Notes under the pieces: generated by a model
The model's input: the letters and a program-made list of their open reading frames with translations, nothing else
Told to the model about the DNA's origin: nothing
The model's database searches: none
Shown: piece after piece, positions 330-13,434 of the stretch
How the letters are laid out: every line of letters begins with the position of its first letter
How positions within the stretch are numbered: position 1 is the stretch's first letter
Made by a program: the position numbers and the translations under genes
NCBI GenBank assembly: GCA_915070235.1
Contig: CAJZFM010000029.1
Location: 1 to 13,434, forward strand
DNA from: an uncultured Capnocytophaga sp.
GTDB taxonomy: Bacteria; Bacteroidota; Bacteroidia; Flavobacteriales; Flavobacteriaceae
Length of the DNA stretch: 13,434 nucleotides
Direction: 5' to 3'

Positions 330-357
330 ATTTGTTACTTGTCACTTGTCACTATTT
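330..357. repeat. Heptamer array (ACTTGTC type)
   Basis: Four consecutive 7-bp units: ATTTGTT, two perfect copies of ACTTGTC, then ACTATTT. The array ends on the first base of the stop codon (357-359, minus strand) of the membrane-protein gene that follows. Confidence 0.6.
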
Positions 358-902
358 TAGTATCCATCAATGGCTCTAATAACCATTTTATAGCGGTCAT
401 AGTCCGCCCCAGAGACGATTTTCACAGGAGTAACTCCTCTGAAATCCGATGGGGAAAAATACTTCATAAGAAGGAGATAGAAGGTTTTGTTCTGTGTATC
501 TTCATAGACATACATCTGTAGGGGTTGGTTGTTCTTGGACGGTAGGTTCGCCAGCTCTTGGTAGTTGCCTTGTTCCAAAAGTCGAGATAGTTCCTCCACG
601 GTGGTGTGACCAGAATCAAATTTCTTATGTCCTTTTTGTTTGATCTTGGTTTGGGTTTGCTTGTTGTAATAATCAGAAGCAAGGAAGAAACTAATCCCTG
701 CAAAGGCCATACCAGTCCAAGCGATGACACGCCATATCCATAGCTCGCCCACAGGGATAAGGTCAGGCTTTATCATCAGTACCAAGCAAACCGCAAAGAG
801 TAGCCCATAGGTGATTTGCTTTGCTGTATCTGCTTTGAGGACAAATTGTTCTGGGTGAGCCTGAAAGTAGGCTGCCATGTTTTGTGGAAATTCTGTATTC
901 AT
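357..902 (-). CDS. Two-helix membrane protein of unknown function
   Basis: A 181-residue protein that I do not recognise. The N-terminal 25 residues are polar. Two hydrophobic stretches follow at about 30-45 (LLFAVCLVLMI) and 55-76 (WRVIAWTGMAFAGISFFLA), forming a membrane hairpin. A basic loop at about 81-95 (KIKQKGHKK) suggests that the rest faces the cytoplasm. Residues 100-181 form a soluble domain with alternating hydrophobic and polar residues, such as QMYVYEDTQNKTFYLLLMKY. No catalytic motif is visible. The gene is separate from the unit upstream (1063-2840), with a hairpin between them, but its upstream region carries the same duplicated element, at about the same distance from the start, as that unit. 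The two may be co-regulated. The ATG at 902 is the only sensible start. There is high confidence that it is a gene and none on its function. Confidence 0.8.
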   Translation of the reverse strand: MNTEFPQNMAAYFQAHPEQFVLKADTAKQITYGLLFAVCLVLMIKPDLIPVGELWIWRVIAWTGMAFAGISFFLASDYYNKQTQTKIKQKGHKKFDSGHTTVEELSRLLEQGNYQELANLPSKNNQPLQMYVYEDTQNKTFYLLLMKYFSPSDFRGVTPVKIVSGADYDRYKMVIRAIDGY

Positions 903-927
903 TATCTAATAATTTTATATTATTTGG

Positions 928-960
928 CGAAGATAAATAATTTTAAAACTTGTAGGCGAA
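928..960 (-). promoter_or_regulatory. Weak promoter candidate of the 902 gene
   Basis: Read on the minus strand, TATCTTCG at 935-928 matches TAnnTTTG with one mismatch. A TTCG at 960-957 sits 21 bp upstream, where TTTG is expected. The site lies between the duplicated element (962-996) and the start codon at 902. Both boxes are imperfect, so the call is tentative. Confidence 0.3.
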
Positions 961-961
961 G

Positions 962-996
962 AAATCAATATTTGCGGGGGAGGGGTAAATATTCGC
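962..996. repeat. Duplicated upstream element, copy A
   Basis: A 35-bp element nearly identical to 2904-2939. It has AATATTTGC at 967-975, a G-rich middle (five G, one A, four G at 976-985) and AATATTCGC at 988-996. The two nonamers are in direct orientation, 21 bp apart, about two helical turns. The element lies 60 bp upstream of the start at 902. Compared with copy B it has T for C in the first nonamer, lacks one A, and has an A interrupting the G run. Confidence 0.7.
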
Positions 997-1003
997 AATG
1001 ATT

Positions 1004-1059
1004 AAGTGAAAAATGAAAAGTGAAGAGCGCTTTTCACTCTTCACTTTTCGCTTTTTGCT
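1004..1059. repeat. Heptamer array carrying an inverted repeat
   Basis: Eight 7-bp units in unbroken phase. AAGTGAA, AAATGAA and AAGTGAA (1004-1024) lead to GAGCGCT, and then to TTTCACT, CTTCACT, TTTCGCT and TTTTGCT (1032-1059). The first half is roughly the inverse of the second, and this produces the hairpin at 1015-1049. Confidence 0.6.
1015..1049 (-). terminator. Hairpin terminator after the lipoprotein operon
   Basis: A perfect 13-bp stem, GAAAAGTGAAGAG at 1015-1027 with its complement at 1037-1049, and a 9-base loop. On the minus strand it begins 14 bases after the stop codon of the 1063-1674 gene and is followed by ATTTTT. This fits a rho-independent terminator separating the three-gene unit from the 902 gene, although the stem is poor in GC. 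Confidence 0.5.
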
Positions 1060-1062
1060 CAA

Positions 1063-1674
1063 TTAGTCTTCTTCTGGTTCAAATGTCCATTGTCCGTCTT
1101 TCTTCTGAGCCATAACACGATAGTAAGTAGTGGTAGTAGTTCGTGTACGTCCTATAGTTCTTGTCTCGGTAGCTTTACCTATTTCAGTAAATTCCATCTT
1201 GAACCCTACTTCATACTCCCCAGCCTTACCATTGCTAACAAGGAAGATACAAGAGACATTGAAGTTCTCATAATCAGGATACTCATCTTTGAATTTTTCA
1301 ATTCCTTCCTTGATGGTATCCACCACCTTGTCTGCACTGATATCCTTGAGTTTGAAGAGGTCACCTTCTTTTTGAGAATCATCTACCGCTTTGGCTTCGT
1401 CCCATTTTTTAGGAAAATTGAACTCTTGAAGGATAATCTTTCCTTGAGCTTGGTCCCAATACATAAAGCGACCGAAGTCAAGAGTATTTCCCTTGAGTGC
1501 TTCCTCGGATTGGAAGAAGATAAGGTTGAATTCTTTATCCTTTATGGGAGAATCCTCAAATAAGGTGATGATCTGTTTGAAGCCCTCTTTATCGTACATT
1601 ACAGGAGCTTTTTTACCACAAGAGGTAAGGGCGAGCGCCATAATTGCCGCGAAGAAAAGTGTAAGTTTTCTCAT
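1063..1674 (-). CDS. Lipoprotein of unknown function (third gene of unit)
   Basis: A 203-residue protein with a clear lipoprotein signal: MRKL, a hydrophobic stretch, then LTSC with the lipidated cysteine at 19. The residues after it (GKKAPVMYDKE) lack the acidic lipoprotein export signal known for surface lipoproteins in Capnocytophaga, so a periplasm-facing location is more likely. The mature part is mixed alpha/beta. A Thr/Arg-rich strand near 170-186 (TIGRTRTTTTTYY) is followed by an acidic C-terminal end. No enzymatic motif is visible. It starts 25 bp after the end of another small lipoprotein gene with a similar signal peptide and is the last gene of a three-gene unit. A solute-binding or envelope-stress role would be pure guesswork. 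The start is supported by the signal peptide. Confidence 0.85.
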   Translation of the reverse strand: MRKLTLFFAAIMALALTSCGKKAPVMYDKEGFKQIITLFEDSPIKDKEFNLIFFQSEEALKGNTLDFGRFMYWDQAQGKIILQEFNFPKKWDEAKAVDDSQKEGDLFKLKDISADKVVDTIKEGIEKFKDEYPDYENFNVSCIFLVSNGKAGEYEVGFKMEFTEIGKATETRTIGRTRTTTTTYYRVMAQKKDGQWTFEPEED

Positions 1675-1699
1675 GTTAGTTTGATTTTTATAAGTGATA

Positions 1700-2356
1700 T
1701 TATTTTTCAGAAACTAATTTTCCTTCTGCGTCAAAGACAAAGGTTTTATAATCTCCTTTTTGAATATTTTGCCCTTCTTTGGCAGCAGTTTTAAAAGTGG
1801 TTGTAAAGGCTAAGGTTTCTTGGTCTTTTTCTATTTGCCACTCTGAGATATAGGAGGTAGAATTAGCTTTTTCCTTAACAGCCTTAATCATCTCAGGAAG
1901 TTTTGCCACAAGAGGTTTTACCTCTGGGTAGGAGAAAAGCAGGTCTTGGTACTGCTCATACTTGGCACGCTTGCCTTCGTCGGTTTTAAGGACAATCATC
2001 TCTCCTCCTAAGTAGCGGAGGTGCTCGTTGTCATAATTGGCTTCAGCAGACTTCAAGGTGTTTTTTTCCTTGTCATCAAGAGCGAAAACCTTTACCTCAC
2101 AGGTTTTATCTCTGAAGGTAGTGTTGATAAAATAAATTTGGAGGGTATCGAGTTTGATACCTTTCTTTTCTATCAGTTTGTCAAAAGTGTTTTCAAAATC
2201 ACCAGCATCGGTACCTACGATACCTTTGGCATAGTCGTAATTGGCATCATCAACACCAGTGACACTTTTGGCCAAACTACTGACACCTTTTTTCCAATCA
2301 CAATTGGCAAAGGTGATGGCCACTAAGGCTACTACTAAAAGGGTGAGTTTTTTCAT
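1700..2356 (-). CDS. Lipoprotein of unknown function (second gene of unit)
   Basis: A 218-residue protein with a type II signal peptide, MKKLTLLVVALVAITFANC, whose lipidated cysteine is residue 19 and is followed by DWKKG. The mature protein is rich in Lys, Glu and Asp, with short hydrophobic strands such as LDTLQIYFINTTF and KTFVFDAEGKLV. It is probably a small soluble alpha/beta domain tethered to a membrane. No known motif was recognised. The gene begins 16 bp after the 155-residue protein gene and ends 25 bp before the next lipoprotein gene, so one transcript is likely. The signal peptide resembles that of its downstream neighbour (both begin M-K/R-K-L-T-L), but the mature parts are not obviously alike. 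Confidence 0.85.
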   Translation of the reverse strand: MKKLTLLVVALVAITFANCDWKKGVSSLAKSVTGVDDANYDYAKGIVGTDAGDFENTFDKLIEKKGIKLDTLQIYFINTTFRDKTCEVKVFALDDKEKNTLKSAEANYDNEHLRYLGGEMIVLKTDEGKRAKYEQYQDLLFSYPEVKPLVAKLPEMIKAVKEKANSTSYISEWQIEKDQETLAFTTTFKTAAKEGQNIQKGDYKTFVFDAEGKLVSEK

Positions 2357-2372
2357 ATAGGGTAAGGGATTT

Positions 2373-2840
2373 TTATTTGTTTCTTTTCCAAAGGGCAGAG
2401 ATACCTACATTTTGGTCTTTCTGTTGTACAGGGTATTTGCTATTGATAGCCTCTAAAATATCTCCATCAAAATCCTTATTACTACCATAGATGGTTTGGA
2501 TAATCCAACGGCCAATCATACCGCCTTCGTTGTAGAGCCCCTTGAGCCACCACTTCATAGTAGAGCGGTCAAAGCCTAAGTAAGTGTCCTCGCGAGACAT
2601 GTCCTCGGTCATAGGAGCATGCTTTACGGTAATAAAAGTACGGTGATAAGCGTTTTTGGCCACGAAGATACGATCTTCTGAGGCAGAAGTTCCCAAAAAC
2701 TGAGCAGCAGCATTGCCTTTTTTGATGAACTCCACTTTGTACTTGTCGCCTAATTTTTCTTTGATGACTTCAAAGAGGTCTTGCAAAGGCACCTTGCCTT
2801 CCAAGAATGTAATGGTGATATTCTTGTCCAATAGTCCCAT
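2373..2840 (-). CDS. Cytoplasmic protein of unknown function (first gene of unit)
   Basis: A 155-residue protein without signal peptide or membrane segment. Residues 8-40 (ITITFLEGKVPLQDLFEVIKEKLGDKYKVEF) suggest a strand-helix-strand start. A Trp-rich segment (MKWWLKGLYNEGGMIGRW, about 95-112) is distinctive, and residues 120-136 (SNKDFDGDILEAINSKY) look helical. I do not recognise the family. It heads a tight three-gene unit with two small lipoproteins, a pairing that could link a cytoplasmic component to the envelope, but this is inference. Its upstream region has a good -7 box, the duplicated element and a run of ten Gs, so expression may be variable. The ATG at 2840 is supported by the promoter about 30 bp upstream. 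Confidence 0.8.
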   Translation of the reverse strand: MGLLDKNITITFLEGKVPLQDLFEVIKEKLGDKYKVEFIKKGNAAAQFLGTSASEDRIFVAKNAYHRTFITVKHAPMTEDMSREDTYLGFDRSTMKWWLKGLYNEGGMIGRWIIQTIYGSNKDFDGDILEAINSKYPVQQKDQNVGISALWKRNK

Positions 2841-2869
2841 AATGACTTGTATTTAAGATTATTTAGTGG

Positions 2870-2906
2870 CAAAATTACATGAAATTTACTGAAATAGAAA
2901 AACAAA
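2870..2906 (-). promoter_or_regulatory. Promoter of the three-gene lipoprotein unit
   Basis: On the minus strand TAATTTTG at 2877-2870 is a perfect -7 box, 29 bp upstream of the start codon at 2840. The nearest TTTG (2906-2903) is 25 bp further up, longer than the usual 19-21, and it abuts the duplicated element. An activator bound at that element could compensate for the poor spacing. Confidence 0.45.
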
Positions 2907-2939
2907 TCAATATTCGCAGGGGGGGGGGTAAATATTCGC
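2904..2939. repeat. Duplicated upstream element, copy B, with ten-G run
   Basis: A 36-bp element nearly identical to 962-996. AATATTCGC occurs at 2909-2917 and again at 2931-2939, 22 bp apart in the same orientation, with ten uninterrupted Gs at 2919-2928 between them. It lies 63 bp upstream of the start at 2840, almost the same distance as copy A from its gene. This suggests a shared operator with two half-sites on one face of the helix; a dispersed repeat is the alternative. Confidence 0.7.
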
Positions 2940-2944
2940 GGCTA

Positions 2945-3024
2945 AACAAGCGAAAAGTGAAAAGCGCTCTTCACTATTCACGCTTCACTTTTCACCTTTT
3001 AGAGTTTGATAATTAACAATTAAA
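2945..3024. repeat. Heptamer array between divergent genes
   Basis: Tandem 7-bp units run in one phase from 2945. GAAAAGT and GAAAAGC (2952-2965) are followed by GCTCTTC, ACTATTC, ACGCTTC and ACTTTTC (to 2993), and then the array changes to AATTAAC and AATTAAA (3011-3024). The arms GAAAAGTGAAAAGCG (2952-2966) and CGCTTCACTTTTC (2981-2993) can pair as a hairpin with a two-base bulge. The last units abut the promoter of the toxin-antitoxin gene. Confidence 0.55.
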
Positions 3025-3036
3025 TTTGTACTTTTG
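3006..3036 (+). promoter_or_regulatory. Promoter of the 3060 antitoxin gene
   Basis: TTG at 3006-3008 and TACTTTTG at 3029-3036 are separated by 20 bp, a good Bacteroidota promoter. Transcription should start about 3042, giving a leader of only about 18 bases to the ATG at 3060. The stretch from 3011 to 3037 is nearly identical to the bioB promoter region at 11737-11764. Confidence 0.65.
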
Positions 3037-3059
3037 CACATGATTTAAATACTATCAGA

Positions 3060-3335
3060 ATGGAGACTTTGATACCTAATAAAGAATGTATGAACACTGT
3101 GTTATTACAAGCAAAGGTGCAAGAGTCAGATGTGCCTTATATAGAACGATTTCTTAGAGGAATTGCTACAGAGGTCTCTTTCGGTGAAGAAACTGATTTT
3201 TTTGAAGAACTGACAGAGGAAGATATTCAGAAAATAGAGAAAGGAAGAGAGCAAATACAACAAGGTATGAGTATCAGTAGTCAGGATTTGCAAAAAGAAA
3301 CCAGAGAGAAATATGGAAGTAAAATGGGCTATTGA
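3060..3335 (+). CDS. Antitoxin-like protein of a broken toxin-antitoxin pair
   Basis: A 91-residue acidic protein. The C-terminal part (EELTEEDIQKIEKGREQIQQ, then GMSISSQDL and EKYG) matches in pattern the antitoxin at 8720-8989 (EEELRAVEEGLRDIEAGNIVSHEEV). Both start with MNT followed by a short strand and then an IERFLRGI or IVNFLENI helix, so they are paralogues. That alignment favours a start at Met 11 (ATG 3090, 81 residues), while the promoter also allows the ATG at 3060, which is kept here. In intact loci such proteins bind and neutralise a RelE/ParE-type toxin and repress their own promoter. Here the toxin gene overlaps the last 23 bases but is cut short. The protein may survive as an orphan antitoxin able to neutralise related toxins. 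Confidence 0.7.
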   Translation: METLIPNKECMNTVLLQAKVQESDVPYIERFLRGIATEVSFGEETDFFEELTEEDIQKIEKGREQIQQGMSISSQDLQKETREKYGSKMGY

Positions 3336-3408
3336 TGCCAAAAACGACTATCACAATACACTTGATTATTGGTATGAGCACAATGGTTATTTATCCATTC
3401 CTCATTAA
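3313..3408 (+). pseudogene. Truncated RelE/ParE-type toxin
   Basis: An ATG at 3313, inside the end of the antitoxin gene, opens a 31-codon frame. It begins MEVKWAIDAKNDYHNTLDYW and ends with a TAA at 3406-3408. The pattern (VKW, A, a Y pair, I/L..W, E.N) is the first helix-containing segment of RelE/ParE toxins and lines up with SITWSHKANIQYYNILTFWAENN of the intact toxin at 8430-8741. A normal toxin has about 100 residues, so roughly 70, including the basic catalytic or gyrase-binding part, are lost. Family likeness stops at about 3387, and the last codons are antisense to the end of the response regulator gene (stop at 3391). The break therefore lies almost exactly at that gene's stop codon, as expected from a deletion or recombination joint. 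The fragment should be inactive. Confidence 0.7.
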
Positions 3409-4131: not shown

Positions 4132-5987
4132 AAAATAGGGATTACTAAGGTTATACAATATCCGCTTTCAGGGGCTTTTCGTGGGGCAGCGGTAAGGTAG
4201 GCGTTGTTCTTTTCGGTTTGGTTAAAGAGCAAATCCAATCGCTCTTGGGTAATGGTCTGTGAAAGGGATTTCTTATGAGGGGAGGCAGAGGTCTTGCCAC
4301 AACCATTGTCGGTAAGGGTGATATGGAGCTTTCCTGCACCTTCTGCTATATGTAGTAAAAGCAGTCCCTTATAGCTTAGGTGCTTAAATCCATGTTCTAT
4401 GGCATTCTCTACCAAAGGCTGTAAGAGCATAGGAGGAATCTGGTAAGTATCGGTATCCAAAGTGGTATCCACCTGAAAGTCAAAACGGTCGGGATAACGC
4501 AGCTGTTGGAGCTTTACATAGGCGTGGAGGGCGTCGATCTCCTCTGTCAGGGAGATAGTCTCCTCTCGGTTGAGTTCCAACATCTTTCTCAGATAGGAGG
4601 AAAAGGTAACCAAGTAATCATTGGCCAAGCTATTTTGTTGTGTTTGGATAAGTCCTTGTAGGTTGGCAATGGCATTGTAGATAAAATGAGGGTTGAGTTG
4701 TTGCTGGCGTAGTTGCTGGGCAAGAAGCAATTGCTTGTTCTCGGCAGAGAGTTGCTTGTTCTGTGCCTTAAGCAAATACCGTTTGTAGCTCAAATAAGAG
4801 GCTATACCTATGATGACAAGCAGCAGCAGTATACCCCCTATTAGGATACGCTGTTGAGAGATAGTACGCTGGTTAAGCTCATTGCTTATAGAGAGTGTTT
4901 TTATTTTGAAATCCTTTCTCTCGGACTGAAATTGGGCTAAGAGTTCTTGGTTCTTTTCGTTTTGTATCTGCTTTTCGCGCTGTACCAAAAGCTGATACAT
5001 AGTATCAACAGCATAGTAGGCTGCTCGGTAGTCTCCCTTGAGACGATAGGCTTCTTTTAGGTTCCAATAATAGGAATTAGACACTAAGGAATCGGTAGAA
5101 CGACTCAGGCGGATAGCCTCCTTGGAGTAGTATATAGCTGAATCGTATTGCTTATTGGCTAAAAACACCCCTGCCATATTCACGAGTAGGGGAGCAGAGG
5201 TTTCATGATGCTTTTGTGCTTTGTGGTAGCGTTGTTTCATCAGCTTCAGCGACTGGATATTCTTGCCAGTGAGCTTGTAGTATTCCGCTTCGAACTCCTC
5301 CAATCGCCTTAGAGCATAGGGTTCGTTGAGCTTTAGGGCTAAGGGGACAGCCAAGGCGTAATACCGCTGAAAGTCTCCAAGATTCTTCTCCGTTAGGGCA
5401 ATCATACAGAGAATGTCGTAATAACGCTGAGCAATGCGTGGATGCTGGCCAAAGGGGCAAGTGGCACGGTATAGGTCAAGGTATTGTTTGCATTGGGGAT
5501 AGTCATGGTTCAGGTAGCAGTACTTGGCCAGCATCTCATAACACTTATAGAGGGAGCGAAGCGATAACCTTTCGGCCTCTTGGGTCTTTTCCACCATGAG
5601 TTTCATTGCCTGATGAGGGGCCAAGCGTTTGTCCTCTCGGCCATACTGCGAAGTCTCCAAGAAAGCGAGCATAGATAGCTCTCGCTCTTGAGGCAGGGGG
5701 TGCAATTGTTCTATATAATAGGAGAGACTATCGCTCTTGAGCTGTTGTAGGAGCTTTATCTTTAGCAGCTTATACCCTGTGGTGGGGACAGGCTTAGGGT
5801 AATTATGCTCAATGAATTGTACTATGGCAGCTTGGCGATGCTCCATCTTTGTCGTATCCAAAGCTAATAAGAACGCTACCACCTCTGTGTCCCGACTAGC
5901 AGAGATAGGGCTTTGGGGGAGCTCTTGGGCATAAGAGCTACCTATACATAAAAGCAAAAGAAGAATACGATATATGTGATTAGTCAT
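4128..5987 (-). CDS. Membrane sensor histidine kinase, LytS/YehU-like
   Basis: A 619-residue kinase counted from Met at 5987. The ORF is open upstream to 6035, but those codons lie inside the hydrolase gene, and only the Met at 5987 gives a proper signal peptide (HIYRILLLLLCIGSSYAQ). Residues about 25-340 are a helical periplasmic sensor made of TPR-like repeats (for example YDSAIYYSKEAIRLSR and GDYRAAYYAVDTMYQL). One membrane helix follows at about 380-402 (LIGGILLLLVIIGIASYL) and then a Gln-rich coiled coil. The His_kinase domain has QQQLNPHFIYNAIANLQ with phosphoacceptor H434. The ATP-binding domain has LVENAIEHGF (N528) and DNGCG (D560). It overlaps the upstream hydrolase gene by 8 bases and the regulator by 4. 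Its signal is unknown; this architecture is common in Bacteroidota. Confidence 0.92.
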   Translation of the reverse strand: MTNHIYRILLLLLCIGSSYAQELPQSPISASRDTEVVAFLLALDTTKMEHRQAAIVQFIEHNYPKPVPTTGYKLLKIKLLQQLKSDSLSYYIEQLHPLPQERELSMLAFLETSQYGREDKRLAPHQAMKLMVEKTQEAERLSLRSLYKCYEMLAKYCYLNHDYPQCKQYLDLYRATCPFGQHPRIAQRYYDILCMIALTEKNLGDFQRYYALAVPLALKLNEPYALRRLEEFEAEYYKLTGKNIQSLKLMKQRYHKAQKHHETSAPLLVNMAGVFLANKQYDSAIYYSKEAIRLSRSTDSLVSNSYYWNLKEAYRLKGDYRAAYYAVDTMYQLLVQREKQIQNEKNQELLAQFQSERKDFKIKTLSISNELNQRTISQQRILIGGILLLLVIIGIASYLSYKRYLLKAQNKQLSAENKQLLLAQQLRQQQLNPHFIYNAIANLQGLIQTQQNSLANDYLVTFSSYLRKMLELNREETISLTEEIDALHAYVKLQQLRYPDRFDFQVDTTLDTDTYQIPPMLLQPLVENAIEHGFKHLSYKGLLLLHIAEGAGKLHITLTDNGCGKTSASPHKKSLSQTITQERLDLLFNQTEKNNAYLTAAPRKAPESGYCITLVIPIL

Positions 5988-6528
5988 TGTTTTCGTCTGT
6001 TTCAAAGAAAAAGTCCTCACGTGGGAGCGTCTCAACTAAGTGTTTCAGGCGAGGGTCATGCAATAGGGTCATGTTGAAAGAGAGCTTGATGCCTGCCTTT
6101 AATAGCTCATGGGCGAGGGATTCGCTCTTGTGAAAGCCATGGAGAATCCACAGCCCTGTGGCACCGATCTTCTTACGCAAACCGATAAGCTCCCCATAGC
6201 TCTTGACACAATGGATAATAAGGGGCTTATGTAGCTGCTCGGCTAAAGAGATATGTCGCTCAAAGAGTGCTATCTGCTTGGGCAGAGGCGTAGCAGCACG
6301 CTTGTCCAAGCCACATTCGCCTATGGCAACACAGAGTGGGTGAGTGGCACGCTCAAGTACTTGTGCCCATTGCTCTTGGCCGTCTCCACTGATATAACAG
6401 GGGTGAATACCTACTGAGAATACGCCCGCATCGTAGGTGTCTTCAGGGAAGCAGTTCTGTACCTCCTGACTATTTTTTGCCTTATGGGTATGTACATTAG
6501 GATAGGGGAAAAGAGGATTAATCGTCAT
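5980..6528 (-). CDS. TatD-like metal-dependent hydrolase, short at the C-terminus
   Basis: A 182-residue member of the TatD family (TIM-barrel metal hydrolases, often DNases). The metal ligands are present: H13 and H15 (NVHTHK), E71 (AIGECGLDK), H106 (PLIIHCV), H130 (WILHGFH) and D178 (FFFETD). The protein stops four residues after that last aspartate. As I recall them, relatives in Bacteroidota run about 35 residues further (typically I..IY..AA....I....L......N) and have about 215 residues; E. coli TatD has about 260. The missing part is the final helix or helices that close the barrel. The kinase gene starts 8 bases inside the end, so the truncation coincides with that joint. The gene overlaps recX by 11 bases. 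Activity is possible but stability is doubtful. No frame containing the lost tail was seen just downstream. Confidence 0.8.
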   Translation of the reverse strand: MTINPLFPYPNVHTHKAKNSQEVQNCFPEDTYDAGVFSVGIHPCYISGDGQEQWAQVLERATHPLCVAIGECGLDKRAATPLPKQIALFERHISLAEQLHKPLIIHCVKSYGELIGLRKKIGATGLWILHGFHKSESLAHELLKAGIKLSFNMTLLHDPRLKHLVETLPREDFFFETDENND

Positions 6529-7000
6529 AGGGAAAGAGTTCTACTGCCTTTTCGTACACCATGGAGGACTCCCAGCCTTTGTAGAGCAGGTAGTCAGCGA
6601 GCTTGCGGCGTGCTTTTTGGATATTCTTCTCAGTGATAGTGTCGGCCTTTTTCTCTGCCAAGGTATCAAATACCTCTTGATAATCGTCCTCTATCTCCTC
6701 CATAGCACAAGCTATATTGTAGCGGGAGATCTCGCGAAACTTCAGCTCGCGGGTGATACGTACGCGTCCCCACTTTTTGAAACGGAATTTGCCTCTGGCA
6801 TAGCTACGAGCAAAGCGTTCCTCATTGAGGAAATTCTCCTCAATAAGGTACGCTACAATAACATCTATCGCTTCGGGAATCATACGCATCTGTCGGAGCT
6901 TAGTGACCACCTCTTTGTGGCAACGTTCCTGATAGGCACAATAGCGCTGCATACGCCCCTTGGCTTCCTCTACCGTATAAGTTTTTACCGTTTCGCTCAT
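6518..7000 (-). CDS. recX: Regulatory protein RecX
   Basis: A 160-residue RecX homologue, which binds RecA filaments and modulates recombination and the SOS response. It is made of tandem three-helix repeats. The hallmark is at residues about 51-85: YLIEENFLNEERFARSYARG, a basic stretch, then KKWGRVRITRELK. The C-terminal repeat (RRKLADYLLYKGW, about 131-143) is also typical. The Met at 7000 is chosen over one ten codons earlier because that one would lie inside the upstream membrane-protein gene, whose stop ends 2 bp before 7000. The 3' end overlaps the TatD-like gene by 11 bases. No recA is present in the window, and the placement within an operon ending in a two-component system looks like packing rather than function. 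Confidence 0.92.
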   Translation of the reverse strand: MSETVKTYTVEEAKGRMQRYCAYQERCHKEVVTKLRQMRMIPEAIDVIVAYLIEENFLNEERFARSYARGKFRFKKWGRVRITRELKFREISRYNIACAMEEIEDDYQEVFDTLAEKKADTITEKNIQKARRKLADYLLYKGWESSMVYEKAVELFPYDD

Positions 7001-7002
7001 GA

Positions 7003-7446
7003 TCAAAAGGCAGCCATCCACGTTTTCCAAGGCAACACACCCAAAATAAGCAGTAATCCTATGCCATAGAAAATAAGGATACGCTTGAAAGCACCTACAT
7101 CAGTTTTCTGCTTTTTGTGTAGTGACCAGCCAATAGTAATAAGCGTTACTGCCACAATACCGAAGGGGTGCTCCACCAGCATCTTTCTCAGGTAAGCGTC
7201 CTTCATCACACCTGCACCCATAGCTGACCAGCTTTGAAAAAGAGGGGTTACAAAATAGAGGATAAGTCCTAAGGTTACCTGTAGGTGTGTGAATATGAGA
7301 GCAAACAAGTTGATACGCAAGTCCTTTTTCTCATATTTACGTTTTTGCCATACACCTAAAGCGGCATTGATTACAGCAAAGCAAAGCACCACCAAGACGA
7401 TATAAGCAGTCAGTGAGTGGGTGGTTTTCAGTAGTTGATATAACAT
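7003..7446 (-). CDS. Four-helix cytochrome b-like membrane protein
   Basis: A 147-residue membrane protein with four hydrophobic segments, at about 10-32, 46-67, 93-109 and 120-138. Each carries or adjoins a histidine: H10 (TTHSLTAY), H54 (LIFTHLQVTLGL), H93 (VEHPFGIVAV) and H110 (WSLHKK). This arrangement suggests a di-haem or single-haem cytochrome b. Homologues in Flavobacteriia are commonly labelled cytochrome b or, wrongly, ribosomal protein L27. Haem binding is inferred from the histidines and is not shown. The gene follows rnz after 50 bp filled by a heptamer array and ends 2 bp before recX. No TAnnTTTG promoter was seen in the gap, so it may be transcribed with rnz. Nothing indicates a redox partner. 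Confidence 0.75.
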   Translation of the reverse strand: MLYQLLKTTHSLTAYIVLVVLCFAVINAALGVWQKRKYEKKDLRINLFALIFTHLQVTLGLILYFVTPLFQSWSAMGAGVMKDAYLRKMLVEHPFGIVAVTLITIGWSLHKKQKTDVGAFKRILIFYGIGLLLILGVLPWKTWMAAF

Positions 7447-7450
7447 ATCA

Positions 7451-7506
7451 GTTTTAAGTTTTAAGTTTTGAGTTTTTAATCACTAATCACTATTCGTTAT
7501 TCACTA
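7451..7506. repeat. Mosaic heptamer array at the rnz 3' end
   Basis: Eight 7-bp units in one phase: two GTTTTAA, GTTTTGA, GTTTTTA, two ATCACTA, TTCGTTA and TTCACTA. Two different unit types are joined without breaking the period. The last two units contain the stop codon (7497-7499) and final two codons of rnz. The array fills nearly all of the gap between rnz and the cytochrome b-like gene. Confidence 0.65.
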
Positions 7507-8408
7507 AAAAAGAATTCTTTCCCGTCTTCGCTCAGTAGCGTATTAGGGAAAATCGTTTGGGCTTCTTCTTGGAAAACCCGTTTGTCCTTATAGCGAGAGG
7601 AGTAGTGGCCTAAGATAAGGGTTTGTACATTAGCGGCTTTAGCGATTTTGGCAGCTTCAAGGGCGGTGGAGTGCTTGGTTTTCTCAGCCAAAGCACGGTT
7701 ATCCTCAAGGAAGGTGCTCTCGTGATAGAGTACTTGTGTCCCCTCAATCAGCGGTATGATCTTAGGCAAATAGGCGGTATCACTACAAAAAGCATAGCTC
7801 TGTGCAGGAGCAGGCGGGAAGCTTAGTACTTCATTGGGGATACACTCCCCACTGTCTAAGATAATGTCCCGACCATTCTTGATATTCTGATAATAGCAAA
7901 CATCAATGCCATATTCTTGCACAGCATCCACATTGAGCTTGCGTTCCTTGTTCTTTTCTTTGAACAAAAAGCCATTGGCATAGATACGATGGTCAAGGGG
8001 AATGGTAGTGACCGAGAGCTTATCGTCCTCAAAGATAACTTCGCTCTCCTTGCTCTCTAACTCATGGAAGTACAAGGGGAAGACCATATGAGCACCACTT
8101 ACTTTCAGCAATAGCAGCATGGCATCTTTGGCACCCTTAGGGGCATGGATATGTAGTTCCGCCTCCCTGCCCTGTAGCTGGAAAGTAGAAATCAGCCCCG
8201 CCAATCCGTAGAAATGGTCGCCGTGGAGGTGAGAGATGAAGATATGCTTGATACGGGCAAACTTAGCCCCTGATTGTCTCAGTGCCATTTGTGTTCCCTC
8301 CCCGCAGTCAATAAGGAAGAGATGCCCCCGCATCTCCAAGAGCTGGGCAGTGGTACGTGCCTTATCCCTCGGTGAAGCACTATGACAGCCTAATGTAGTT
8401 AATTTCAT
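7497..8408 (-). CDS. rnz: Ribonuclease Z
   Basis: A 303-residue tRNA 3'-processing endonuclease of the metallo-beta-lactamase fold. It cuts tRNA precursors after the discriminator base. The metal site is complete: H60, H62, D64 and H65 in FISHLHGDHFYGLAGL, then H140 (PLDHRI), D210 (YAFCSDTAY) and H268 (LILGHYSSRYKD). The family signature FLIDCGEGTQ is at 31-40 and HESTF at 229-233. The length matches bacterial enzymes (about 300-310). The gene starts 21 bp after the intact toxin gene, with no recognisable promoter in the gap. It may therefore share the toxin-antitoxin promoter or have one inside that locus. The final codons (Ser-Glu-stop) lie inside a heptamer array. Confidence 0.96.
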   Translation of the reverse strand: MKLTTLGCHSASPRDKARTTAQLLEMRGHLFLIDCGEGTQMALRQSGAKFARIKHIFISHLHGDHFYGLAGLISTFQLQGREAELHIHAPKGAKDAMLLLLKVSGAHMVFPLYFHELESKESEVIFEDDKLSVTTIPLDHRIYANGFLFKEKNKERKLNVDAVQEYGIDVCYYQNIKNGRDIILDSGECIPNEVLSFPPAPAQSYAFCSDTAYLPKIIPLIEGTQVLYHESTFLEDNRALAEKTKHSTALEAAKIAKAANVQTLILGHYSSRYKDKRVFQEEAQTIFPNTLLSEDGKEFFFSE

Positions 8409-8429
8409 AAACCTGTAACAGAGAGTAAT

Positions 8430-8741
8430 TTAAAATTTGAGTTTTTTAGGGTTACTCCTATTATCAATAAAAGCTAAAATAAGAATTTCATTGTACTCTT
8501 CAATGAATCTATAATATATAGAGAAATTGCGCAAGATAGTAACTTTCCTGATATCTTTTTCTTTAGAGAAAATCTTTCCAATTTTTGGAAAGGAAATGAG
8601 CATATCAAGTATTGTAGTTACCTGTTTTTCAATACTTTCAATATAATTTATAGACTGATTATTTTCTGCCCAAAAGGTAAGAATATTATAGTATTGGATA
8701 TTAGCCTTATGTGACCAAGTTATGCTTCTTTCCTTCTCCAT
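8430..8741 (-). CDS. RelE/ParE-family toxin
   Basis: A 103-residue basic protein of the RelE/ParE superfamily. The N-terminal helix (ITWSHKANIQYYNILTFWAENN) and the C-terminal strands (RKVTILRNFSIYYRFIEEYN, ILILAFIDNRSNPKKLKF) are typical of the family and it is full length. Members either cleave mRNA on the ribosome or poison gyrase; the sequence does not show which. The start (ATG 8741) overlaps the end of the antitoxin gene by 22 bases, indicating coupled translation. The locus is richer in A+T than rnz and the kinase genes nearby, which suggests acquisition by transfer. A truncated relative is present at 3313-3408. Confidence 0.85.
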   Translation of the reverse strand: MEKERSITWSHKANIQYYNILTFWAENNQSINYIESIEKQVTTILDMLISFPKIGKIFSKEKDIRKVTILRNFSIYYRFIEEYNEILILAFIDNRSNPKKLKF

Positions 8742-8989
8742 CTTTCTTTATAACTTTCTATGATATTTCTTGCTCCTTGCATTACCTCTTCATGAGAGAC
8801 AATGTTCCCTGCCTCTATATCTCTTAGGCCTTCTTCTACAGCTCTAAGTTCTTCTTCAGTAGGTGTTTCTGTTTCTTCAAATACTTCGTAATCAGGAGTT
8901 TGTATTTCGACGCCTATATTTTCAAGGAAATTAACAATAAGCTGATATTTCTGAAAATCAATAGGTTCTTTTAAGGTAATTGTGTTCAT
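8720..8989 (-). CDS. Antitoxin of the intact RelE/ParE-type pair
   Basis: An 89-residue acidic protein preceding and overlapping the toxin gene by 22 bases. The N-terminal half (MNTITLKEPIDFQKYQLIVN, then FLENIGVEIQ) could fold as a strand-helix unit. The middle (EETETPTEEELRAVEEGLRDIEAG) is strongly acidic and helical, and the end (ESYKERWRRKEA) is basic. A classical Phd or RelB DNA-binding motif is not obvious, so the antitoxin class is assigned mainly from its position and from its likeness to the protein at 3060-3335. Family behaviour suggests that it neutralises the toxin and autoregulates the promoter at 9024-9054. Confidence 0.8.
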   Translation of the reverse strand: MNTITLKEPIDFQKYQLIVNFLENIGVEIQTPDYEVFEETETPTEEELRAVEEGLRDIEAGNIVSHEEVMQGARNIIESYKERWRRKEA

Positions 8990-9023
8990 AAATTATAAGG
9001 TTTAAAAGTTTTAAAATTCTCCG

Positions 9024-9054
9024 CAAAGATACGAATATAATGACAAATGACAAA
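9024..9054 (-). promoter_or_regulatory. Promoter of the intact toxin-antitoxin pair
   Basis: On the minus strand TATCTTTG at 9031-9024 is a perfect -7 box, with TTTG at 9054-9051 and 19 bp between. The start codon is at 8989, giving a leader of about 30 bases. The -33 box is made by a TGACAAA heptamer (TTTGTCA on the minus strand) that is present twice. It may serve rnz and later genes too. Confidence 0.7.
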
Positions 9055-9061
9055 TAATAAA
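9034..9061. repeat. Heptamer array (TGACAAA type)
   Basis: AATATAA, two perfect copies of TGACAAA (9041-9054) and TAATAAA follow one another in 7-bp phase. The second TGACAAA supplies the -33 TTTG of the antitoxin promoter at the right spacing. The first would place it too close, so gain or loss of one unit should alter promoter strength. Confidence 0.55.
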
Positions 9062-9064
9062 TTA

Positions 9065-9097
9065 GAGGTAAGTTATCAGGCTTTAGTAACAAACCTC
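9065..9097 (-). terminator. Probable terminator of the GH2 gene
   Basis: GAGGTAAGTTA at 9065-9075 and TAACAAACCTC at 9087-9097 can pair over 11 positions with two mismatches and an 11-base loop. On the minus strand the hairpin begins about 11 bases after the GH2 stop codon and is followed by TAATTTATTATTT. It is a weak but well-placed candidate. Confidence 0.4.
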
Positions 9098-9107
9098 TCA
9101 TAATAGC

Positions 9108-11579
9108 TTATTGACCGCTTGTCATGATTTTTGTCTCTCCTTTTAGTTTTTTGCTATTGGCTTTTAGGGTAATTTCTCCTGCTTTCTCAGTAGCCTGAAC
9201 TATGACAACCAATTTCCCATTGAACAGATGCATTTTAGGCAAATGGAAAGGATCAATACAAGTGGCATCTCCATTGGCAGCAGCACGATAGGTGCCCACC
9301 CCTTTTACTGTAAATTCCACCAGTTCGTTTACATTGGGGCATACATTACCTTTTTCGTCTATCACTTCTACAGTAACAAAGCAAAGGTCTTTGCCATCAG
9401 CTTTGATAGTAGAACGATCAGGCGTTAGGCGTAGGGCATAAGGAGCACCTGCAGTATGGAGCTGTCTTTCGGCTACAGCTTTGCCTTTTTCATCATAAGC
9501 GACTACCTTTACAATACCAGGTTCATACTTAATGTCCATCCACATTAGGCGGTAGCGTTTTTGGCGATCAAGATCGGTAGGGTTACCTTTTCCTTCATCT
9601 TTGGCTAACCTGATGCTGAGATCTTTGCTGCGTTTTCCTTGGCTTTTTCCATTGATAAAAAGCTCCGCTGTAGGATAGCTGGTATAAACGAAAATAGGAG
9701 TTGTCTTTCCTTCACGTCCCTCCCAATTCCAGTGAGGAAGGATATGAAGCGTTTCCGCTTCTTTGTTCCAGTGAGAGCGATAGAGGTAAAAGCGATCTTT
9801 AGGAAGTCCTGCCAAGTCTACTGCTCCAAAATAAGAACTATGAGACGGCCATTCCTCATAGTAAGGAGTAGGCTCTCCCAGATAATCAAAGCCTGTCCAA
9901 ATAAATTCTCCTATAGTATAGGGTAGGTCTTCTTGGTGAATCCAGTCATCTTCAGGGAGGTTTGACCAATCGCAATGTTCTACATCATAGGACGATGATT
10001 GCATGTCTGGATATTTGGCCATAGACTTTCTCTCTATAGGAAACTTATACACGCCTCGTGAACTGAGTGTAGAAGCGGTCTCACTACCAAGTAACAAACG
10101 TTGTGGGAGCTTGCCATAGGCCTCTTGGTATTTGAAAGGGCGATAGTTAAAACCGACTAAATGCATGGTCGCAGCCATATTGTTTCGCAAAACATCATCA
10201 GGCCTATCCATACCATTGCTTATAGGGCGTGTAGGATCTAATGCTCGTACTATGTTTTGTAAGTAATAGGCTACTTGTGAGCCATTCTCTACGCTTTGTT
10301 CTTCTACTTCGTTACCAATGAACCACATCAGTACACTGGGGTTGTTGCGGTAATGCTTGACAAGGTTTGTGAGGTCTTTGGCAGCCCAATCCTTGAAGTA
10401 GAGGTGATAGCCGTTATCCACCTTGGGTATAGCCCATTCGTCAAAGCTCTCAACAGCCAGTAACATACCCATCTCATCGGCAGCACGTACATACTCAGGG
10501 GCAGGCATGTTATGGGAGGTACGGATGGTATTGGCGCCCATATCTTGCATAATACGTATCTGTCGGCGGATGGCGGCTTCATTCACAGCGCCTCCTAAGG
10601 CTCCTAAGTCATGATGCATACACACCCCTTGGATCTTGATCTTTCGGCCATTGAGGTATAGGCCATCGTTGGGTTTTACCTCTATAGAACGAATGCCAAA
10701 GGTTGTACTCATCTGGTCTTTTACCACTCCATTTTCATAGAGTTTAGTGACGGCTTTGTAGAGATATGGTTTTCCTATATCCCACAGCGTAGGATGGTTG
10801 ATATAGAGTTCGTTAGAAAGTACATCGCCAGTATATTGGGTGCTTTGGGTAGTGTGAGTCGTTAGCTTTTCTCCCTTGGCGTTGAAAATAGTGGTTTCCA
10901 CTGAAATATTGGCCTTATTATCGGTTACAAATTCAGTATTCACCAAGACTTTAGCAAAATCTTTTTCTATGATAGGGGTTGTAAGCTGTATTCCCCAAAT
11001 AGGTATATAAGTCTTGTTCTTAGTGATAATATGTACATGGCGGTATAGGCCTGCACCGGGATACCAGCGTGAGGCTTCAGGGAGGTTATTTAATCGTACG
11101 GCGAGTATATTTCCTTGAGCCTTTACAAAGGAACTGATATTGAGAAAGAAAGTATTGTAACCATTGTGCCATAGCCCTGCCTTGTGTCCATTTACATATA
11201 CTTCAGGATTACTCATAGCTCCGTCAAACTGTATAAATACCTGCTTGTCGGCCGTCAATTCAGGTATATCAAATTCAGTACGATACCAGCCGACCCCCAC
11301 AAAGGGCAATCCTCCTGTTCGTCCTGTATGTTCAATGGCTGATTTCTGACCGTCTTGCTTGATAGCAATACGCTGAAGATCATTCTCCCTATCGAAAGGG
11401 CCATAGATAGCCCAATCATGCGGCAAGGTCACCTTTTGCCATTTGCTGTCATTGTAGTCTCCATGTGAAAATTGAGGCTGGTCTTCACGTGTGAATTTCC
11501 ACCCCTTTTCTAAGGTCTGTTGTTGCGCCCAGCTCATAGTGGTAAGTGCTAACAATAATAGAAGATTAATTTTTCTCAT
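9108..11579 (-). CDS. Secreted GH2 family beta-galactosidase-like enzyme
   Basis: An 823-residue glycoside hydrolase of family 2, counted from Met at 11579. An in-frame Met 15 codons upstream falls within the promoter. The signal peptide is MRKINLLLLLALTTMSWA, cut before QQ. Residues 25-190 are the sugar-binding sandwich domain (VGVGWYRTEFDI, RWYPGAGLYRHV). An Ig-like domain follows, then the TIM barrel from about 305 (RTSHNMPAPEYVRAADEMGM). The acid/base is E424 in WFIGNEVEEQ and the likely nucleophile is E500 in LLGSETAS. GEFIWTGFDYLGEP is typical of this branch. Two C-terminal sandwich domains, the first resembling DUF4982, complete it. It probably removes terminal beta-galactose or a related sugar from host or dietary glycans in the periplasm or at the surface. 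No SusC/SusD partners are nearby, and the exact substrate cannot be read from the sequence. Confidence 0.92.
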   Translation of the reverse strand: MRKINLLLLLALTTMSWAQQQTLEKGWKFTREDQPQFSHGDYNDSKWQKVTLPHDWAIYGPFDRENDLQRIAIKQDGQKSAIEHTGRTGGLPFVGVGWYRTEFDIPELTADKQVFIQFDGAMSNPEVYVNGHKAGLWHNGYNTFFLNISSFVKAQGNILAVRLNNLPEASRWYPGAGLYRHVHIITKNKTYIPIWGIQLTTPIIEKDFAKVLVNTEFVTDNKANISVETTIFNAKGEKLTTHTTQSTQYTGDVLSNELYINHPTLWDIGKPYLYKAVTKLYENGVVKDQMSTTFGIRSIEVKPNDGLYLNGRKIKIQGVCMHHDLGALGGAVNEAAIRRQIRIMQDMGANTIRTSHNMPAPEYVRAADEMGMLLAVESFDEWAIPKVDNGYHLYFKDWAAKDLTNLVKHYRNNPSVLMWFIGNEVEEQSVENGSQVAYYLQNIVRALDPTRPISNGMDRPDDVLRNNMAATMHLVGFNYRPFKYQEAYGKLPQRLLLGSETASTLSSRGVYKFPIERKSMAKYPDMQSSSYDVEHCDWSNLPEDDWIHQEDLPYTIGEFIWTGFDYLGEPTPYYEEWPSHSSYFGAVDLAGLPKDRFYLYRSHWNKEAETLHILPHWNWEGREGKTTPIFVYTSYPTAELFINGKSQGKRSKDLSIRLAKDEGKGNPTDLDRQKRYRLMWMDIKYEPGIVKVVAYDEKGKAVAERQLHTAGAPYALRLTPDRSTIKADGKDLCFVTVEVIDEKGNVCPNVNELVEFTVKGVGTYRAAANGDATCIDPFHLPKMHLFNGKLVVIVQATEKAGEITLKANSKKLKGETKIMTSGQ

Positions 11580-11626
11580 ACAAATGTGTTTTAAGATCTG
11601 TTGCTGATTATTCGGCTCAGACACTA

Positions 11627-11657
11627 CAAAATTAATAAAAAAATAGGAAATAACAAA
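11627..11657 (-). promoter_or_regulatory. Promoter of the GH2 gene
   Basis: On the minus strand TTTG at 11657-11654 and TAATTTTG at 11634-11627 are 19 bp apart, an excellent match to the Bacteroidota pattern. The leader to the ATG at 11579 would be about 40 bases. The position rules out a start at 11624. Confidence 0.7.
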
Positions 11658-11680
11658 GTTAATTCTTAGTTTTTTGTCAT

Positions 11681-11750
11681 TAGAGTAATCATTAATCTCA
11701 AACCACTAATCGCTAAATTAACAATTGACAATTGACAATTAACAATTAAA
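11681..11750. repeat. Mosaic heptamer array upstream of bioB
   Basis: Ten consecutive 7-bp units in one phase. The first five (TAGAGTA, ATCATTA, ATCTCAA, ACCACTA, ATCGCTA) are degenerate versions of the ATCACTA unit seen at 7479-7492. The last five are AATTAAC, AATTGAC twice, AATTAAC and AATTAAA. An AATTGAC unit provides the -33 TTG of the bioB promoter. Confidence 0.65.
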
Positions 11751-11763
11751 TTTTGTACTTTTG
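11732..11763 (+). promoter_or_regulatory. bioB promoter
   Basis: TTG at 11732-11734, inside the second AATTGAC heptamer, is followed after 21 bp by TACTTTTG at 11756-11763. The ATG is at 11792, so the leader is about 22 bases. From 11737 the sequence is nearly the same as at 3011-3037. No BirA or BioR-like palindrome was recognised. Confidence 0.65.
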
Positions 11764-11791
11764 CCCCTTGTAATATTTCATTAGAAAGACC

Positions 11792-12853
11792 ATGAACGAA
11801 ATACGACATAACTGGACACCAGAGGAGATTATCGCTATCTATAACAAGCCCTTGATGGACTTACTTTATGAGGCCGCTACTGTGCATCGTAAGTACCACG
11901 ATCCTAATACCGTACAGGTTTCTACCTTGCTCTCGGTCAAGACCGGGGGCTGCTCGGAGGACTGTTGTTACTGCTCGCAGTCGGCACGCTACCACACCGA
12001 GGTGGAGATAGAACCCATGATGAGCCTCTCCCAAGTGAAGGCGCAGGCCTTGCGAGCCAAAGCCTCTGGAAGTTCCCGTGTGTGCATGGGGGCTGCTTGG
12101 CGCAATGTCAAGGACGGCCCTGAGTTCGAGCAGGTGTTGGAGATGGTACGTACCATTAACAAATTAGATATGGAGGTGTGCTGTACCCTTGGAATGCTTA
12201 CTGAAAACCAAGCCAAACGCCTCTCCGAGGCGGGTCTCTATGCCTATAACCATAACTTAGATACTTCTGAGGATTATTATAAGGAAATCGTAACTACTCG
12301 TAGCTACGAAGACCGTCTCAAGACTATAGAGAATGTACGTAAAACAAGTATCACAGTATGTAGTGGAGGAATCATTGGTATGGGTGAGGCCTTGGAGGAT
12401 AGGGCTAAGATGCTCGTGGCACTCTCTACCCTTGACCCTCAGCCTGAATCGGTGCCTATCAATGCTTTAGTACCTATTGAGGGTACGCCCCTTGAGGAGC
12501 TGCCACCAGTGGATATCTGGGAAATGGTGCGTATGATCGCCACTGCCCGTATCGTGATGCCTCAGTCTCAGGTACGCCTCTCTGCAGGACGTATGAATAT
12601 GTCCCGCGAAGGACAAGCCTTGTGCTTCTTTGCGGGGGCTAACTCTATCTTTGCGGGGGATAAACTGCTGACCACTCCCAACCCCGACATCAAGGAGGAT
12701 ATGCACATGCTCGAAGTCTTAGGTATGCGTACCCAAAAACCTTTTGAGAAACACCCACAACCTACTACAGTGGAAGCGGCGGATTCTAAAATACCTGCCC
12801 TTGGTGAAAAACCTAAGTGGTCAAGACCTCAAAAAGTGAAGAGCGAACAATAA
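11792..12853 (+). CDS. bioB: Biotin synthase BioB
   Basis: A 353-residue radical SAM enzyme that inserts sulfur into dethiobiotin, the last step of biotin synthesis. The radical SAM cluster motif GGCSEDCCYCSQS gives C54, C58 and C61. The ligands of the second, sulfur-donating cluster are C98 (SSRVCMGAAWR), C130 (MEVCCTLGML), C190 (ITVCSGGIIGMGE) and R262 (QVRLSAGRMNM). YNHNLDTS and NALVPIEGTPL are also conserved. The length is close to E. coli BioB (346). The tail after about residue 325 is hydrophilic and variable, and its last codons (KVKSEQ) lie in a heptamer array. The gene stands alone: no other bio genes are in the window. A divergent GH2 gene lies upstream and a convergent DUF7935-like gene downstream. 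Confidence 0.97.
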   Translation: MNEIRHNWTPEEIIAIYNKPLMDLLYEAATVHRKYHDPNTVQVSTLLSVKTGGCSEDCCYCSQSARYHTEVEIEPMMSLSQVKAQALRAKASGSSRVCMGAAWRNVKDGPEFEQVLEMVRTINKLDMEVCCTLGMLTENQAKRLSEAGLYAYNHNLDTSEDYYKEIVTTRSYEDRLKTIENVRKTSITVCSGGIIGMGEALEDRAKMLVALSTLDPQPESVPINALVPIEGTPLEELPPVDIWEMVRMIATARIVMPQSQVRLSAGRMNMSREGQALCFFAGANSIFAGDKLLTTPNPDIKEDMHMLEVLGMRTQKPFEKHPQPTTVEAADSKIPALGEKPKWSRPQKVKSEQ

Positions 12854-12924
12854 AAAGTGAATAGTTAAAAGTAAAAAGTGAAGAGTGAAAGTTATCTTTC
12901 ATTCTTCACTTTTTACTTATAACT
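12834..12924. repeat. Heptamer array from the bioB 3' end through the terminator
   Basis: Thirteen 7-bp units in one phase. AAGTGAA recurs at 12834, 12855 and 12876, with relatives GAGCGAA, TAGTTAA, AAGTAAA and GAGTGAA between. After the loop unit AGTTATC come TTTCATT, CTTCACT, TTTTACT and TATAACT. The first units are the last codons of bioB, and the two halves are inverse and pair as the terminator. Confidence 0.6.
12864..12923. terminator. Bidirectional terminator between bioB and the DUF7935-like gene
   Basis: A 28-bp stem (left arm 12864-12891, right arm 12896-12923) with only two mismatches, one of them a G-U wobble in the plus-strand RNA, and a 4-base TTAT loop. It lies between the convergent bioB and DUF7935-like genes and touches the stop codon of the latter. 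The A-run in one arm and T-run in the other suit termination in both directions. Confidence 0.7.
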
Positions 12925-13433: not shown

Positions 13434-13434
13434 T

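Follow-up and report, generated by a model that had tools for sequence, protein, structure and literature searches.

We describe a family of short 7-bp arrays in the intergenic DNA of Capnocytophaga, found in 13,434 nt of DNA from an uncultured member of the genus (GCA_915070235.1, contig CAJZFM010000029.1; the whole stretch is referred to as the window) and followed into its relatives. The lag-7 arrays are real and extend well beyond the window; about one-third of the intergenic regions of its closest relatives carry them, and their units, different as they seem, appear to be variations on a single loose pattern, TGANNAR, rather than independent types. Our analysis suggests that they are probably largely neutral, locally duplicating, fold-back intergenic arrays of one dispersed, degenerate heptad family of approximately this form.

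The window contains 1264 nt of intergenic DNA, with genes delimited by crude open reading frame (ORF) calls and no annotation. In this DNA, identity at lag 7 reaches 0.403, compared with 0.295 after shuffling (z 9.2), and there are harmonics at lags 14 (z 4.8) and 21 (z 4.1). The comparison with lags 5, 6, 8, and 9, which an earlier sequence-only reading of the window had put forward as a check, gives z values of −0.1, 1.2, 2.5, and 1.6, of which the third is a weak signal; lag 2 gives 2.7. Coding DNA of the window has no excess at lag 7 (identity 0.258). A segment caller finds eight lag-7 segments against 0.2 in dinucleotide shuffles, occupying seven of the eight intergenic regions of at least 40 nt, with no segments at lags 4, 5, 6, 8, and 10–13 and one at lag 9. 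These segments cover all seven regions that the sequence-only reading had described as tandem heptamers, and Tandem Repeats Finder gives period-7 rows in each of the seven. No Rfam match at gathering score is present in the window, which argues against a known RNA as the identity of the arrays.

The closest sequences come from Capnocytophaga sp. oral taxon 863 (locus L001, genome G001), whose BioB is 98% identical to that of the window, and C. gingivalis (L002, G002), at 96%. Bacteroidetes promoters have −33 and −7 elements, and we take TANNTTTG to be the −7 box. The arrays, and two promoter-like boxes located by sequence and a regular-expression scan, are as follows (1-based coordinates):

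332–353: heptad array on the 3′ side of the gene at 357–902, of the TGACAAG class when read on the minus strand (plus strand: ACTTGTC)
1004–1059: inverted heptad array with arms AAGTGAA and CACTTTT, after the gene at 1063–1674; hairpin of about 23 pairs
2948–3023: inverted heptad array passing into an AATTAAC stretch and then a promoter-like core
3029–3036, plus strand: TACTTTTG, a match to the −7 box TANNTTTG, closely 3′ of AATTAACAATTAA
7438–7502: heptad array with a type change from AGTTTTA to AATCACT; oral taxon 863 and C. gingivalis have other units at the same place
9039–9062: short heptad array of AATGACA, identical in oral taxon 863 and altered in C. gingivalis
11686–11749: heptad array 5′ of bioB, with a type change from ATTAATC/CACTAAT to AATTRAC
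11756–11763, plus strand: TACTTTTG, promoter-like −7 box of bioB
12834–12928: inverted heptad array with a strong hairpin, between bioB and the gene at 12924–13433; called as two lag-7 segments, 12846–12889 and 12898–12928

The predicted RNA folds of 1001–1062 (−24.6 kcal/mol) and 12831–12930 (−35.3 kcal/mol) are given without shuffled folds as comparison. A TTG at 11732–11734, inside the array upstream of bioB, precedes the TACTTTTG box by 21 nt. Downstream, the terminal residues of BioB (KVKSEQ; 12832–12853) are encoded by the array there, and the end of BioB in C. gingivalis (NKVNSEK, translated by eye) is likewise encoded by an array of its own. We also note two G-tract elements, at 974–996 and 2919–2939, which end in TAAATATTCGC and are each closely followed by a heptad array; the exact sequence GGGGTAAATATTCGC occurs in none of 249 loci.

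The sequence-only reading had named a lag-7 excess confined to intergenic DNA as the outcome that would support it, and the sampled stretches of both relatives have such an excess. Oral taxon 863 has 113 lag-7 segments in 46 kb of noncoding DNA (3.5 expected) and nine in 351 kb of coding DNA, and C. gingivalis has 72 in 31 kb noncoding (2.4 expected) and 11 in 179 kb coding; the lag-7 z values are 36 and 32, with harmonics. The excess persists under ORF masks of at least 50, 80, or 120 aa, and the shuffle comparisons in the window and both genomes rule out chance or base composition as its source. Lag 7 is not fully exclusive, as lags 2, 3, and 4 also stand above shuffles in both relatives (z 8–12), lag 8 has z values of 7 and 3, and lag-8 segments number 14 and 5 against 2.9 and 1.9 expected. 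Arrays are present in 86 of 228 intergenic regions of at least 40 nt in oral taxon 863 and in 57 of 130 in C. gingivalis (130 of 406 and 112 of 365 in larger samples), and make up 7–11% of noncoding bases, depending on the ORF mask. Among 20 Capnocytophaga genomes, 16 of which were sampled by just 3.5–6.6 kb of noncoding DNA, density is 2.0–2.5 arrays per kb of noncoding DNA in oral taxon 863, C. gingivalis, G012, and G014, 0.8–1.7 in a sister group (G003–G006, G013, and G015), and 0–0.56, without clear excess, in the other ten. In other Flavobacteriia, a lag-7 segment is present in 48 of the 765 regions sampled from 75 loci (57 segments; 15.4 expected).

We fitted a cyclic seven-column pattern to 371 arrays from oral taxon 863, C. 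gingivalis, G014, and the window. The fitted columns are T at position 1 (0.84), G at 2 (0.57), A at 3 (0.66), A at 6 (0.90), and A or G at 7 (0.93 together), with positions 4 and 5 nearly free, giving approximately TGANNAR, that is, ARTGA and two free bases. The log-likelihood per base is −0.907, against −1.076 (standard deviation 0.004) in 20 sets with columns permuted within each array, using eight restarts for the real arrays and four for the null. In their best register, the arrays of the window read TGACAAG, TGAAGAG, TTTTAAG, TCACTAA, TGACAAA, and TTGTCAA, among others, a display that is no test alone, as a best register exists for any array. The z values under the common pattern in oral taxon 863, C. 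gingivalis, and G014 (23.8, 19.4, and 13.1) do not count as independent, since their own arrays went into the fit; fitted separately, each of these genomes exceeds its own permuted null. Turning to arrays outside the fit, the pattern is found in the sister group (z 6.8), holds weakly in other Flavobacteriia (z 2.2) and in five further Flavobacteriaceae genomes (z 2.4), and does not hold in the nine arrays of G012 (z 0.7). With this distribution, common descent within the clade would be the simplest source of the shared pattern. The five further genomes have 18 lag-7 segments against about 1.4 expected, and were picked for their TGANNAR triple matches, thus forming no random sample; one of them (G120) has no segments and another (G272) has as many at lag 8 as at lag 7 (five and five). 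At least one exact TGANNAR triple is present in 125 of 299 Flavobacteriaceae genomes, oral taxon 863 being highest with 461 overlapping matches and the next having 103, but these counts are without a valid control because the reversed pattern is a heptad pattern too, fitted by TGANNAG in rotation. Units do vary widely, with 461 distinct ones among 2090, and at least one perfect doublet is seen in 110 of 193 arrays, the remainder being degenerate. The observation in the sequence-only reading that units change between sites stands, but they are not unrelated types.

The internal structure of the arrays bears on how they arise. At all positions, units resemble their neighbors more than they resemble units farther off, and this likeness declines over several units. 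Relative to the between-array level, the excess identity at the two free positions is 0.38 and 0.28 for units one step apart and 0.13 and 0.17 for units eight steps apart. Such decay is a prediction of local duplication. The sequence-only reading had further noted that the 7-bp phase is kept where the unit type changes within one array, and this is correct as long as the array is unbroken. On the same strand, stretches of similar type are in phase in 88 of 97 pairs, and abutting 21-mers of different type (0–3 nt apart) in 16 of 16, a result that follows in part from how such pairs arise, as the two pieces will often belong to a single continuous periodic stretch. Across 4–21 nt, however, stretches of different type are in phase in only 6 of 31 pairs, where about one in seven is expected. 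Phase is therefore a property of the unbroken array.

Arrays also turn over between close species. When 30 intergenic regions of oral taxon 863 are compared with their orthologs in C. gingivalis, arrays are present in both in seven, in the former only in six, in the latter only in two, and in neither in 15 (Fisher p 0.02). We inspected by eye the 15 alignments in which one or both species have an array (40-nt rather than 20-nt flanks; one with a run of N), and these include large arrays without a counterpart and apparent growth from a short seed. In one orthologous array, the third base is changed alike in four successive units (CTAATTA CTAATCA CTAACCA CTAATTA in one, CTGATTA CTGTTCA CTGCTCA CTGATTA in the other).

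Array frequency is about equal across gene orientations (convergent 36/116, tandem 100/288 and 85/243, divergent 47/146), which rules out a promoter-only or terminator-only function as a general account. A stem score of at least 12 is reached by 55% of the 264 regions with arrays, 34% of the 517 without, and 3% of averaged shuffles, and both arms of such a stem lie within the array in 74 of 273 array-bearing regions. An array of 36 units in C. gingivalis reverses its orientation after about 20 units, with a long imperfect stem as its RNA fold. A link to promoters is seen at some sites, as RACAATTAA is followed by TANNTTTG within 3–9 nt at 10 of 111 RACAATTAA sites (one of the ten inside an array) and by the reversed box at none.

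The sister group departs from the simple picture of a 7-bp period. Beside 41 period-7 segments (2.0 expected), it has period-8 arrays (AATTTGCT, AATTAGCA; 30 against 2.8) and period-11 arrays (e.g. GATATAGGAAG, AACGAACTATA; 21 against 3.0), the listed lag-11 segments including some that are merely AT-rich. Periods 9, 10, and 12 are at most about 2.5-fold enriched (4 against 2.2, 5 against 2.0, and 6 against 3.2), and periods 4, 5, 6, and 13 are not enriched. The loci of the C. sputigena group with intergenic period-8 arrays (AATTWGCN) and period-11 arrays, besides period 7, are L003, L004, L005, L111–L120, L143–L148, L161–L162, L169–L170, and L181–L182. The presence of periods 8 and 11 beside 7 indicates that 7 is no universal constant and speaks against a 7-nt footprint common to all. 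Together with the shared TGANNAR pattern, it contradicts the suggestion of the sequence-only reading that a process generates a 7-bp period as such, rather than copies of one repeat.

How might such arrays be produced? We infer that local duplication, through replication slippage or fold-back copying assisted by hairpins, would lengthen and shorten them, while units mutate and a mutated unit may spread into adjoining units, so that type would drift along an array as the phase stays. Steps of 7 bp would break reading frames, which could be why coding DNA is without arrays. The majority would be neutral passengers of intergenic space, with a few possibly co-opted, as where AATTRAC stretches would provide the TTG of a promoter −33 element or inverted arrays may act as terminator-like hairpins. 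Several points weigh against this reading. Duplication alone leaves both the sharing of a pattern between distant arrays and the preference for 7 unexplained, and common descent or dispersal, neither directly observed here, must be added to it. Growth in unit steps finds no clear support in the alignments of orthologous arrays, where gaps do not come in exact multiples of 7 (lengths include 7, 34, 29, 13, 15, and 5, and 9 and 5 in a further comparison). In the relevant passages of one slippage model, folded slippage is unlikely to yield units of 7–10 nt (PMC7430839). Array-free convergent regions also often carry stems (50 of 80), and the conserved heptad positions could be a sign of selection.

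Selection is central to the idea that a protein or RNA reading DNA in 7-bp steps binds to the arrays, in which case it would maintain the TGANNAR positions. The conservation of T1, A6, and R7 around two nearly free positions, and the AATTRAC stretch closely 5′ of TANNTTTG with no reversed box, are in its favor, but the near-equal frequency in all gene orientations, the turnover among close species, the duplication-like decay at free positions, and a promoter link at only a minority of sites make it an unlikely account. We also consider it unlikely, to a similar degree, that the replication machinery of many bacteria simply prefers 7-nt slippage steps on any sequence, a proposal of Mrazek et al. 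2007 (as cited in passages of PMC4679880 and PMC4692102). While the variety of units and the excess in the five preselected Flavobacteriaceae genomes agree with this, a pattern common to the clade, the very uneven density between species of one genus, the period-8 and period-11 segments of the sister group, and the absence of arrays from the 9.4 kb of noncoding sequence within 100 kb of the E. coli genome do not. Dispersal of copies of a small mobile or copied element could explain the single pattern throughout the clade, and a promoter-plus-array module of about 50 bp matches many loci in oral taxon 863, C. gingivalis, and G014; yet the loci viewed vary in length and unit content, and the 15 alignments, judged by eye and without a dedicated search, have no constant ends or target duplications, leaving this improbable. 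Equally doubtful is a lineage-specific copying activity whose sequence preference sets both period and unit (for the gingivalis group, TGANNAR with a 7-bp step; for the sputigena group, AATTNGCN with an 8-bp step and a GATANNNGAAN-like unit with an 11-bp step). Finally, as 7 is no multiple of 3, a heptad containing a stop codon closes all frames, and 61% of 361 arrays do close all three frames of one strand within 21 nt, against 40% when columns are permuted. However, TAG is outside the 24 most enriched trinucleotides listed, GTG and AGT are also strongly enriched, and the stop set ranks second among 45 sets of like composition, so a stop-codon function is very improbable as the reason for the arrays.

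Loss of a repair function does not account for their distribution either. In the 20 Capnocytophaga genomes, array-rich or array-poor, mutS (above the curated cut-off) and a gene with the IMS domain are present throughout, which rules out an explanation by missing mismatch repair or a missing DinB-type polymerase. For SbcCD, whose loss might have let hairpin-forming arrays persist, the pattern is the opposite: a search for sbcD finds it in all 10 genomes that bear arrays and in 4 of the 10 that are poor in them (Fisher p 0.011, uncorrected for kinship or genome completeness, and with the array-rich/poor split drawn after densities were known).

Intergenic heptamer arrays are known from cyanobacteria, Xanthomonas, Beggiatoaceae, and some Bacteroidetes, the passages cited giving no mechanism for them (PMC4679880, PMC4692102, PMC2670836), and the arrays described here belong to this broad class, having tandem 7-bp units beyond chance in intergenic rather than coding DNA. 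The short tandemly repeated repetitive (STRR) sequences of cyanobacteria likewise have units that are usually 7 bp long, and hairpin loops, with no known function according to the cited passage (PMC2670836). The Capnocytophaga arrays share the hairpin-forming heptads, but come from another phylum (the nearest loci are Capnocytophaga), vary in unit within an array, and follow TGANNAR. Among cyanobacterial plasmids, the sequences sampled here in place of chromosomes, 150 kb of Trichormus plasmid A contains four arrays, where 0.3 would be expected, and 100 kb of an N. azollae plasmid contains none. Direct repeats of TAACTGA, described from Beggiatoaceae, Cyanobacteria, and five Bacteroidetes (MacGregor 2015, PMC4679880), are also intergenic heptamers. 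As described in the passages cited, their main genome has one dominant fixed unit, mostly directly 5′ of start codons, with related heptamers rare as repeats, whereas Capnocytophaga has many variants of a degenerate unit in all gene orientations. MacGregor 2015 also mentions mixed heptamers in Microcystis, Gramella, Aequorivita, and Elizabethkingia, and Cyanothece indels mostly in 7-nt increments. Of the 49 doublet units in the arrays described here, the 40 listed do not include AACTGAT, the canonical form of TAACTGA. In the Nostoc trnL intron (PMC4476775), the P6b stem is described as built from 7-nt motifs of two classes (TDNGATT or NNTGAGT), one having replaced the other several times, although these repeats lie within a group I intron rather than between genes. 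The GGGAATC/GGGGAYT repeats of Xanthomonas and Nostoc, some in inverted pairs, are likewise intergenic heptads, but are reported as G-rich, quadruplex-forming, and nearly fixed in sequence (PMC4692102), unlike the arrays here. Bacterial satellites include heptamer-derived families such as (GATAGRA)n of Chloroflexus, but the survey, by its stated limits, takes repeats of 10–260 nt in at least four regular copies (PMC6749651), and short degenerate heptad arrays therefore fall outside it. The SPADE survey of 7006 genomes contains intergenic tandem heptamers, and the passages cited make no mention of degenerate arrays, of a pattern shared between units, or of periods particular to a clade (PMC6344855). 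Among the matches listed from the open-licence literature, we found no paper on Capnocytophaga arrays of this kind. The sequence-only reading knew of no described mechanism, which agrees with these published accounts as cited, but the novelty it left unverified does not extend to heptamer arrays, mixed heptamers, or 7-nt indels, all of which are in print (PMC4679880, PMC6344855, PMC4692102).

Other features of the window concern its gene content. DNA identity to oral taxon 863 is about 90% over 9010–13434 and 82% over 5983–8408; between these, at 8409–9009, lies a toxin–antitoxin-like pair without a counterpart at the same place in that relative. Its ORF at 8430–8741 is ParE-like, with a Pfam E-value of 1.6e-4 at a score slightly below cut-off, and the ORF at 8720–8989 has no family. 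At 3060–3400, a 91-aa ORF without a Pfam family is followed by an apparent truncated start of a ParE/RelE-like ORF (from about 3312, by eye), possibly a decayed toxin–antitoxin pair.

The kind of repeat is thus already known, and what our analysis adds is a single degenerate pattern, a limit to the keeping of phase, independence from gene orientation, and the occurrence of periods 7, 8, and 11 within one genus. As a perfect doublet is found in only 110 of the 193 arrays, our results suggest that perfect-repeat searches for one unit undercount such arrays. If a lineage-specific copying activity were nevertheless at work, several enzymes or enzyme states within one genus would be writing intergenic DNA at distinct fixed steps. 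Since Capnocytophaga includes species rich in period 7, others in which periods 7, 8, and 11 occur side by side, and others again that are poor in arrays or free of them, the question of why the step is 7 is directly testable through its sister species.

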